Source of the DNA: Verrucomicrobiota bacterium
GTDB taxonomy: Bacteria; Verrucomicrobiota; Verrucomicrobiia; Limisphaerales; UBA1096
Length of the DNA: 43,747 bases
Reading direction: 5' to 3'
NCBI GenBank assembly: GCA_030747605.1
Contig: JASLKL010000003.1
Location: 1 to 43,747, forward strand
Part shown: piece after piece, positions 6,870 through 10,343 of the stretch
Layout: each line of letters begins with the position of its first letter
How positions within the stretch are numbered: the first letter of the stretch is position 1
Notes under the pieces: model-generated
What the model was told of the DNA's origin: nothing
Seen by the model: only the letters and a program-made list of their open reading frames with translations
Database searches by the model: none
Translations under genes and position numbers: made by a program

Positions 6870-8459
6870 TCAAGGCTGACCCTTGGTCTTTTTCTTTGCA
6901 GTCTTTTTGCGCCGGCTATTACTCAAATGTCGATTAACAGCATTGAGATACGCCTTTGCGCTGGCTTCAATTACATCGGTACTAGCACCCTTCCCCGTGA
7001 TAAGCTCACCATCTCCGAAATCTACCTTCAAACTAACTTCACCTAGCGCATCCTTGCCTTGAGACACACCACGTAACGCATAATCCTTCAGCCTACCCTG
7101 AGTCTCAGTAAGACGGTCAATTGCCTTAAGTGCAGCATCAACAGGACCATCACCCACCCCAGCATCCTCTAGAACTATATCTTTCTTAGACCGCCCAGAA
7201 GCTGGCTTCCGTAAGCGAACAGTAGCTGTCGGGACGGTCTGATTTCCACTTGTGACGTTAACATACTCCATCAACCAAGTCTCTGGCACCTTAGTAATCT
7301 GGCCATCAACCAGTGCTCCAAGATCATCATCATAAACAAATTTCTTTTTATCGCCGATTTCCTTAAAACGACTAAAGACATTAATTATTTCATCGTCAGA
7401 AAGCTTAAACCCAAGGTGTTTAAGTCGTAGAGCCATAGCAGCCCGACCGCTATGCTTCGTCAATGGCAACTCAGTCTGCCCCCAGCCAACATCCTGCGGA
7501 TCCATAATCTCGTAAGTTTCACGCTTCTTGATGATTCCATCCTGATGGATTCCACTTGAGTGCGCGAAAGCATTCTCACCAACGATAGACTTATTTCGTT
7601 GCACCACAAAACTACTCATACGCGAAACCAGACGAGAAGATTTCACGATCTCATTGGTTTTAATTCCACACTTAATATTCTTATAGTAATCCTCCCGAGT
7701 TTTTAAAGCCATAACCAATTCCTCAAGAGCAGCATTACCAGCTCGCTCCCCGATACCATTCACAGTGCACTCGATTTGGCGTGCTCCATTCTCAACGGCA
7801 GCTAAGGAGTTAGCCACAGCCATACCAAGATCATTGTGACAGTGAACACTGATGACAGCCTTGCCTGTTTTAAACTCCGGAACAGAAGCGTGAAGATGTC
7901 CGATTAGCTCACCAAACTGCCCAGGGACAGCCCACCCAACCGTATCAGGAATATTAACGGTAGTAGCCCCAGCATCAACCACTGCTTGACAAACCTCCGC
8001 GAGAAAGTCTGGTTCAGTTCTAGATCCATCTTCGGGAGAAAACTCAACATCTGCTGTAAGCTTGCGAGCTCTTTTCACACCCTCAACAGCAAGTTTAATG
8101 ATTTGGCTCTGCGCCTTACCAAGCTTAAATTCACGATGCAATTTCGAGGTGGCAAGAAAAACATGTATACGCCCCTTGCTCCCAGCTGGAGCAACCGCCT
8201 TACCAGCAGCTTCAATATCCCCAGGAACACAACGTGCTAAGCCTGCAATAGTTGGCCCCTTGATTTCTTTAGCGATAGTGTTGACAGCCGTGAAATCTCC
8301 GTCGCTGATCACAGGGAATCCCCCCTCAATCACATCAACTTTAAGTCGGGCCAGTTGACGCGCGACCTCAAGTTTCTCTCGCAACGTCATAGAAGCACCA
8401 GGACACTGTTCGCCGTCGCGAAGTGTCGTATCAAAAATAATGATCCGATTCTTTTTCAT
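6870..8459 (-). CDS. leuA: 2-isopropylmalate synthase
   Basis: [95 protein letters not shown] plus a C-terminal regulatory region. The track start (TTG, 8486) lies in the terminator U-tract; ATG 8457-8459 ([10 protein letters not shown]) is the better start. Confidence 0.93.
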
Positions 8460-8484: not shown

Positions 8485-8518
8485 AAAAAACCCCGAAGCC
8501 TTGCTGGCAGCGGGGTTT
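8485..8518 (-). terminator. Rho-independent terminator/attenuator in the leuA leader
   Basis: Minus-strand RNA AAACCCCG-CU-GCC-AGCAA-GGC-UU-CGGGGUUUUUUG: 8-bp GC-rich outer stem, 3-bp inner stem and U6, located between the leader ORF and the leuA ATG. Confidence 0.85.
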
Positions 8519-8555
8519 ACAAATTTTATGAGCACTAGCTTAAACCTCGGCCACC
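8506..8555 (-). promoter_or_regulatory. Candidate antiterminator of the leuA attenuator
   Basis: GGUGGC (8555-8550) pairs with GCUGCC (8511-8506), and GGUUU (8546-8542) pairs with AAACC (8518-8514). Both 3' partners lie in the 5' half of the terminator hairpin, so the two structures exclude each other. Hand-folded only. Confidence 0.6.
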
Positions 8556-8614
8556 TGAACGCTTCCTAAAAGCGCCAGTTCCAGCAACAAAAGTCGTAGT
8601 CTCACAAATAACAT
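8540..8614 (-). CDS. Leucine-rich leader peptide (leuL-like) of the leuA attenuator
   Basis: Reverse strand: ATG TTA TTT GTG AGA CTA CGA CTT TTG TTG CTG GAA CTG GCG CTT TTA GGA AGC GTT CAG GTG GCC GAG GTT TAA = MLFVRLRLLLLELALLGSVQVAEV*. 9 Leu and 4 Val in 24 codons, stop about 21 nt before the terminator stem. Confidence 0.82.
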   Translation of the reverse strand: MLFVRLRLLLLELALLGSVQVAEV

Positions 8615-8622
8615 CTCGGCGG

Positions 8623-8651
8623 AAAATATCGACGAGCTACCGTCAAGTCAA
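8623..8651 (-). promoter_or_regulatory. Candidate sigma70-type promoter for the leuA leader transcript
   Basis: Minus strand TTGACT (8651-8646), 17-nt spacer, TATTTT (8628-8623). Predicted TSS would fall within a few nt of the leader ATG. Confidence 0.45.
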
Positions 8652-8691: not shown

Positions 8692-10227
8692 CTATTCGTT
8701 GTCATCTTCAATAGCTTCAGGATCACCAACAAGAATTACTGAGGCTGCCTCACTAGGCTTGGCTTCAAAAAGCACGCTCTCTGGACCCCAACCTGACCAA
8801 CCCTGAATACCTGGAGCATCCAAATCACTATCTATCACCGCAACACCCAAGCCAAATGATACATTTTCTTCAAGAGTCGATACTCCAACTGTTTCCGGCG
8901 CAAACCAAAACTCATAAACGGTCGTGCCAGTAGCAGGATTACCGTTGGCAGGGTCGATCGTTTTTCGGTTTCGGCGTATTACAACATCAAACTCAGCGTC
9001 ACCTTTGATTTGCTCCGCATATCCAATTGGCGGAACAAACCCTGGGGTTGAAAGCATTTTTTTATTATAGGCAAGATCGTTTACCAACTTCCAGTCTGGG
9101 TCTTTCAAGAACACGTCATAAGATAATGCAAAAACAAACTCTCCTAATACTTCATTGCGATCAGCATTAGTAAATAAAATCTTAACAGCGTCACCCTCAT
9201 CAGCAGATTTACCAAAATGGACATGTTGATCATCCTCAACCACCAAAGTAAGCTGTAGCCCTAAAACGTTCCATCCAATCCCTAACTTAATATTGTGATC
9301 CTTTTCTCCCTCCCATTTGCCTTCACCAAATTCGGCAAATTGAGAATATGTAGTCTCACCTGCGATGTAATTAGCCTCACCTCGCTGATCCTCGTCAACT
9401 ATTTCAAAACCAGGATTAGCGACCATTTCGCTTGCCAACCATTCACTAGGAATCCCATCAAGACTGCCATTAACCGGTTTAGCTTCATAATAATCATAAT
9501 GAAGATCAATTCGGTTTATATTTTTGGGTGGCGGCTGTACATAAGGCATCAACCGATAAAACCGTTGTCTGTACTTACTAGTGTTGGTTTCCTTAAAAAC
9601 TAATGTATCAGACGTGAAATCCAAAATCTTTCTCACGCGCCAGTCGATTAAGTTCTCCGAAGAAAGAATTTGAAACTGCCTAGGCTCGATCTTCATTTTC
9701 TTATTTAGAAAGCCATACCAGCCTGGGGCCAAAGCCGTAGCCTCCATTATAAAATGATTGTCCAAATCAAAACGAATGATGCCGTAATAGCTTTTCAGTA
9801 AATCAGCAACATTCGTATGTCCAAAAAATGCTACGCCATCCATGGCAGTCTCGCCTGCTTTGTCTTTTGCATTTATATCCGCGCCGTGAACCAGTAACAA
9901 TTTGACAATGTCAACAAACCCTCCTACGGCGGCATGGTGCAGTGCTGTAGCTTTGTCAAAATCACGATGCCGAACATTCGCCCCAGCATCAACAAGGAGT
10001 TGAGCAATCTCTAGGTTACCATACTCAGCAGCATAGTGCATGGCGGTTTTACCAGTCCAATCATCAATGGTTTCAACATCAGTCCCGGCTGCTATGTGGG
10101 CCTTAACGGTGTTAACATCATTACGCCAACTTGCCGCCGCCCATAGAGGTAGCTCTGGAGCAGCCTGAACAGAAGCTGCCCAAAAAATCAGGAGACTAAT
10201 TAAAATACGACTAAGATTCCCTAACAT
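8692..10227 (-). CDS. Secreted ankyrin-repeat protein with C-terminal CBM9/DOMON-like domain
   Basis: Ankyrin repeats (TGKTAMHYAAEYGNLEIAQLLVDAGANVRHRDFDKATALHHAAVGGFVDIVKLLLVHGADINAKDKAGETAMD), then FYRLMPY motif and a C-terminal beta-rich region ending FGLGVAVIDSDLDAPGIQGWSGWGPESVL. Start chosen at MLGNLSRILISLLIFWAASVQA (signal peptide); the track ORF extends to 10323. Confidence 0.75.
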   Translation of the reverse strand: MLGNLSRILISLLIFWAASVQAAPELPLWAAASWRNDVNTVKAHIAAGTDVETIDDWTGKTAMHYAAEYGNLEIAQLLVDAGANVRHRDFDKATALHHAAVGGFVDIVKLLLVHGADINAKDKAGETAMDGVAFFGHTNVADLLKSYYGIIRFDLDNHFIMEATALAPGWYGFLNKKMKIEPRQFQILSSENLIDWRVRKILDFTSDTLVFKETNTSKYRQRFYRLMPYVQPPPKNINRIDLHYDYYEAKPVNGSLDGIPSEWLASEMVANPGFEIVDEDQRGEANYIAGETTYSQFAEFGEGKWEGEKDHNIKLGIGWNVLGLQLTLVVEDDQHVHFGKSADEGDAVKILFTNADRNEVLGEFVFALSYDVFLKDPDWKLVNDLAYNKKMLSTPGFVPPIGYAEQIKGDAEFDVVIRRNRKTIDPANGNPATGTTVYEFWFAPETVGVSTLEENVSFGLGVAVIDSDLDAPGIQGWSGWGPESVLFEAKPSEAASVILVGDPEAIEDDNE

Positions 10228-10343
10228 TGACCGCGCACCATTTATACAGACTTTAACTACTCGACCAGCGAAATCGCCCAATTCGCAGGCCTTGCACCAG
10301 CTCCAAGCTTGGCTTACGTTCAATCAATTAGATTTTCAATCCC

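Follow-up and report, generated by a model that had tools for sequence, protein, structure and literature searches.

The leader upstream of leuA in this member of the Verrucomicrobiota is very probably a ribosome-mediated transcription attenuator that senses charged leucyl-tRNA, and leuA is the gene it is proposed to regulate. Its parts lie on the minus strand of the window, that is the whole stretch of 43,747 nucleotides that was analysed, within the 232 nt separating the ankyrin-repeat gene from the leuA ATG at 8459 (Table 1). The original prediction had put this gap at about 230 nt and had placed within it a 24-codon ORF with nine Leu codons, four of them in tandem, a GC-rich terminator with a U6 tract 21 nt past the leader stop, and a competing antiterminator between the last leader codons and the 5' half of the terminator. 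The ORF is there, with 9 of its 24 codons for Leu (in order TTA CTA CTT TTG TTG CTG CTG CTT TTA), the terminator and both antiterminator arms have exactly the coordinates proposed, and the distance of 21 nt is correct. The terminator hairpin is composed of AAACCCCGCTGCC-AGCAA-GGCTTCGGGGTTTTTT and was overlooked by a simple terminator scan because of its internal loop. Beyond what had been predicted there are the promoter (8651-8623), a probable leaderless start, a hairpin nested in the ORF (8575-8559), inside which the last two Leu codons fall, and a wider distribution of the leader.

The gene proposed to be regulated is assigned as a type I 2-isopropylmalate synthase from scores of 734 bits with NF002086 (cut-off 532) and 678 bits with TIGR00973 (cut-off 598.7). 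A citramalate synthase identity was rejected, the score with that model being far below the curated cut-off. On the other side of the gap, the C-terminal two thirds of the ankyrin-repeat protein are without any Pfam family match.

Table 1. Features of the leuA leader and its flanking genes in the window
Feature	Position	Strand	Remark
−35 hexamer, TTGACT	8646-8651	minus	TTGAC kept in 61 of 62 aligned relatives
−10 hexamer, TATTTT	8623-8628	minus	17-nt spacer to −35; same spacer in 47 of 62 relatives
Leader ORF, 24 aa, MLFVRLRLLLLELALLGSVQVAEV*, 9 Leu	8540-8614	minus	start codon 8 nt past −10
Four tandem Leu codons, CTT TTG TTG CTG	8582-8593	minus	conserved Leu columns
Hairpin nested in ORF, GCGCTT TTAGG AAGCGT	8559-8575	minus	window fold and covariation
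Region 2, antiterminator 5' arm, GGTGGCCGAGGTTT, encoded by final leader codons	8542-8555	minus	pairing and covariation, 62 relatives
Region 3, AAACCCCGCTGCC, common to antiterminator and terminator	8506-8518	minus	pairing and covariation
Intrinsic terminator hairpin with U6	8485-8518	minus	−18.0 kcal/mol; conserved in 62 relatives
leuA, 2-isopropylmalate synthase (type I)	6870-8459	minus	NF002086 and TIGR00973 above cut-off
Ankyrin-repeat gene, upstream neighbour	8692-10323	minus	Pfam Ank_2

The Leu-rich ORF is out of the ordinary, but it does not settle the matter by itself: when the gap was shuffled 2000 times with its dinucleotides preserved, 26 of the shuffles (1.3%) gave an ORF of 12-40 codons containing nine or more Leu. 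What is decisive is conservation across relatives, and this comparative evidence indicates that the leader package is not due to chance. A leuA of the window's type was found in 97 of 98 relatives searched, 80 leuA loci were drawn from the genome collection, and of the 86 distinct regions lying ahead of leuA in relatives 68 have the complete package, made up of TTGAC, a spacer mostly of 17 nt, a −10 starting with TA, 5-11 nt, an ORF with ATG or GTG, its stop codon and a terminator. Leader ORFs of relatives have 22-25 codons with 5-9 Leu and a consensus peptide of approximately MNRNLNLRLLLxxALLLSRAAVGF*, and their terminators, of −17 to −30 kcal/mol, lie 3-26 nt past the ORF stop. A covariance model trained on 46 leaders, none from the window's genus (model R2), had its best match in the window at 8614-8486 (46.3 bits, E of 8.5e-12), followed by one with an E of 2.7.

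These observations bear on an extremely improbable reading, in which the hairpin is merely the terminator of the ankyrin-repeat gene and the Leu-rich ORF a chance reading of the sequence. The hairpin does stand some 175 nt behind that same-strand gene, which is an expected place for its terminator, and the shuffles do on occasion yield such an ORF. However a promoter sits between the ankyrin-repeat gene and the hairpin, and relatives have the leader in front of leuA whichever gene lies upstream (an aspartokinase-like one at L113, L115 and L116), and so assignment of the hairpin to the upstream gene is refuted by conservation. A chance origin of the ORF is opposed by conservation of its Leu codons together with the antiterminator.

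Selection acting on the Leu codons is evident in seven mostly-Leu columns of the alignment, where 153 of the 158 codons one base off the consensus are synonymous, still encoding Leu (44% expected), although numbers of this p-like kind are optimistic, as Leu content had some part in the choice of ORFs and loci and the sequences are related; the trend itself is nonetheless clear. When 40 further model matches were fetched regardless of any ORF, all 25 of those upstream of leuA had a properly placed Leu-rich ORF, and the three upstream of ilvB all had a Val-rich one. In 61 of 62 relatives the start codon follows the −10 at 5-11 nt, too short a distance to accommodate a Shine-Dalgarno site, and so the leader ORF is probably leaderless. 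As judged from this promoter spacing, transcription would begin at the leader start codon or within a few bases of it.

Covariation of the helices was scored over 62 aligned leaders with 500 shuffles per helix. In the terminator 96.5% of the pairs are retained, with a covariation of 0.262 against 0.159 when shuffled, the antiterminator is 88.3% paired (0.209 against 0.157) and the ORF-nested hairpin 73.9% paired (0.298 against 0.199); for each of the three none of the 500 shuffles reached the score, and shifted pairings score far worse. Column 119, in region 3, is common to the terminator and antiterminator, and both of its pairs are intact in 52 of the 62 leaders, the column and its two partners being TAT in 26, CGC in 14, TGC in 8 and TGT in 4. 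This column has changed at least 13 times on the LeuA tree, and among the supported independent pairs, which are too few for significance, its terminator partner changed in the same direction or not at all and never in the opposite direction. Antiterminator arms of leuA leaders pair better with their own partner than with those of other loci (−17.9 against −17.2; 8 of 2000 permutations), and the duplex of regions 2 and 3 in the window, at −15.0 kcal/mol, is weaker than the mean of −17.9 kcal/mol. A classical 1:2 protector stem forms in the window fold; over the 62 leaders it has no covariation beyond chance (408 of 500 shuffles reach its score), and so it is not claimed. The checks that the original prediction had proposed were a covariance search of relatives' leuA upstream regions, conservation of the Leu-rich uORF, covariation of the terminator and antiterminator pairs and a comparison with the Rfam leader families, and as each of them, here and below, had the expected outcome, its attenuator interpretation is supported, with premature termination and a leucine response as the predicted behaviour.

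In the proposed switch, scarcity of leucine would cause the ribosome to stall on Leu codons, either at 8593-8582, proposed as the main stall site and also as the core of a putative region 1, or at 8572-8567. Region 2 would then stay free and pair with region 3 once region 3 has been made, and RNA polymerase would continue into leuA. With leucine plentiful the ribosome would reach the stop codon and cover region 2, region 3 would pair with region 4, and transcription would stop in the U6 tract. Transcript start, termination and the leucine response with its direction are thus what the layout of the leader predicts.

The effect of ribosome position was modelled by folding each of the 62 leaders with a ribosome at every codon, the footprint being assumed to extend 12 nt from the first A-site base. 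When the terminator 3' arm is absent, the antiterminator has a mean probability of 0.64-0.85 with the A site at any position as far as the final conserved Leu; with the A site at that Leu, eight codons before the stop, the probability is 0.71, at the next codon it is 0.15 and beyond this it is 0, and so the last of the Leu codons marks the point past which the ribosome starts to mask region 2. This masking profile agrees with the earlier proposal, in which a ribosome that has finished the leader sits over the antiterminator and one stalled at Leu codons leaves it free. For the full leader at thermodynamic equilibrium the terminator is favoured even with a stalled ribosome (mean probability 0.77-0.95). 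Equilibrium folding, predicting the terminator in every state, was rejected as a model of the switch, and it follows that the decision must be kinetic and made during transcription. The features of the attenuator class found in this leader are a cluster of end-product codons, an intrinsic terminator between the leader ORF and the gene, and a mutually exclusive antiterminator blocked by a ribosome at the stop but not at the regulatory codons.

It seems quite improbable that the uORF controls leuA mainly by another route, be it translation, the stability of the mRNA or a trans-acting peptide, and that the terminator plays a minor part. There are precedents for such routes, in that leader mutations at the Streptomyces leuA do not fit classical attenuation (PMC1262725) and a leader peptide with trans activity is known, peTrpL of Sinorhizobium (PMC7298713). 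However, unlike the actinobacterial LEU element, the leader studied here has a U-tract terminator and a covarying antiterminator in nearly all of its copies, which favours transcription attenuation.

Three weak model matches upstream of ilvB with Val-rich leaders prompted a survey of ilvB in the order, and of the 30 loci taken (L166-L195) 28 have the same architecture, with the same promoter spacing, an ORF of 22-28 codons and a terminator with a 5' side complementary to the final ORF codons. The Val-rich ORFs are probably leaderless as well. An example is MLVNTRQVVLAVVVVTDDAVGACRG* (L178), which comes with a terminator and a long antiterminator. Codons of ilvB leaders are 26% Val and 8% Leu, and those of leuA leaders 29% Leu and 10% Val. 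Pairing of ilvB arms with their own partner gives −21.3 against −18.5 with the partners of other loci (0 of 2000 permutations). The window's own assembly, which is 74% complete, gave no ilvB match; nine ilvB loci of the same genus carry the Val leader. Codon identity across these loci tracks the pathway, and no other indirect evidence speaks as strongly for the codons being the sensor as this swap does.

The swap also counts against a leader that works through a ligand or tRNA, in the manner of a riboswitch or T-box, or through a protein, with the ORF incidental. This is highly improbable: riboswitches and T-boxes also employ terminator/antiterminator pairs, but no Rfam family matched, T-boxes and riboswitches included, the conserved sequence ahead of the terminator is a frame of 22-25 codons with selected Leu codons, and at ilvB Leu is replaced by Val. 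A Val-rich leader ORF, MNQYAMIKVSVAVVAVSDPAVVDYCA*, with a promoter and terminator was also seen in another order of the class (L138 / L197, G372:C9:283257-283386), where the target is a lone methyltransferase-like gene, a misfit with branched-chain amino acid synthesis.

When the order was searched with a covariance model (R1), the leader turned up in 199 of the 245 genomes examined, including 114 of 128 high-quality ones, and in 104 of 115 genera. Outside the order but within the class it precedes leuA in four families (f65, f67, f73 and f75), and a search of another 240 genomes from the phylum did not find it at E 1e-4. Weak out-of-order matches (L139, L140, L142, L143, L145, L146, L149, L151, L152, L156 and L157) consist of a terminator lacking any Leu or Val ORF and were dismissed as chance matches. 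Seven leuA loci (L064, L066, L086, L088, L094, L097 and L099) gave no match to the leader model and appear to have lost the attenuator or replaced it.

The gene behind the leader is, in many genomes of the order, not a type I but a type II leuA (NF002991 and TIGR00970 above cut-off), the two types being about 30% identical and non-orthologous. Both types occur together in the genomes G081 and G140, where each gene has a leader to itself. Since the leader is found before both leuA types, it tracks function and not gene family. Type II genes (TIGR00970/PRK03739) behind a Leu leader were recorded at L114, L116, L117, L120, L121, L147, L153 and L154, and further ones at L159-L162, L164 and L165. 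It is possible, though somewhat short of probable, that control of branched-chain amino acid synthesis across the order comes from one leaderless attenuator design, with Leu codons at leuA and Val codons at ilvB, and that the leader was kept or re-used when type II leuA displaced type I, the regulator following the function and not the gene.

Many marine and soil lineages of the Verrucomicrobiota are uncultured, and genetic tools for the phylum are few. To this phylum the leader adds a clear and deeply conserved case of probable attenuation, and it would give a function to small unannotated genes across hundreds of genomes. The paired Leu leaders of leuA and Val leaders of ilvB, built on one layout, amount to a natural codon-swap experiment, and regulation that outlives gene replacement can be studied with this leader, which occurs ahead of two unrelated leuA types. 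The leader also predicts leaderless translation in the phylum.

Leader-peptide attenuation by amino acids is reported for Proteobacteria, Actinobacteria and some Firmicutes, and in the enterobacterial leuL attenuator a Leu-rich leader ORF, an intrinsic terminator and an alternative antiterminator control leuA of leuABCD. The window leader shares with leuL the Leu-rich ORF, the terminator, the antiterminator and the leuA target, but a sequence relation is undetectable, with no Rfam match, and it differs in being probably leaderless, in having an antiterminator arm inside the last ORF codons and in a terminator placed 3-26 nt past the stop. For the window and 10 relatives no Rfam family, the leader families among them, matched at the gathering threshold, and matches at E up to 10 were at chance level only; the motifs of a structured-RNA survey (PMC5737381) were compared via Rfam only. 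As of 2010 leader peptide systems were unknown outside Proteobacteria and Actinobacteria (PMC2965389). The original prediction knew of no description in this type of bacterium, and neither Rfam nor the literature searched yielded a leader-peptide attenuator in Verrucomicrobiota, most subscription journals lying outside that search, so that absence is not proof. Overall the mechanism is known, and the lineage and variant are new.

The actinobacterial LEU element likewise has a uORF with a Leu run upstream of leuA, but it is described as a pseudoknot in which a base stem pairs the Leu codons with the leuA Shine-Dalgarno box, whereas the conserved parts in the order are an intrinsic terminator and an antiterminator (PMC1262725). 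Sinorhizobium trpL shares an attenuator leader peptide before a biosynthetic gene, for another amino acid, other genes and another phylum (PMC7298713). The closest mechanistic match, especially for the ilvB leaders of the order, is the Corynebacterium ilvBNC attenuator (ilvB-II motif), a leaderless three-hairpin system that has in common a uORF rich in branched-chain codons, an antiterminator, a terminator and, probably, the leaderless start (PMC10272879, PMC11857589). It belongs to another phylum and, as regards the copy in the window, to another gene, with no sequence relation shown, and in contrast to it the leader at leuA carries a pure Leu signal.
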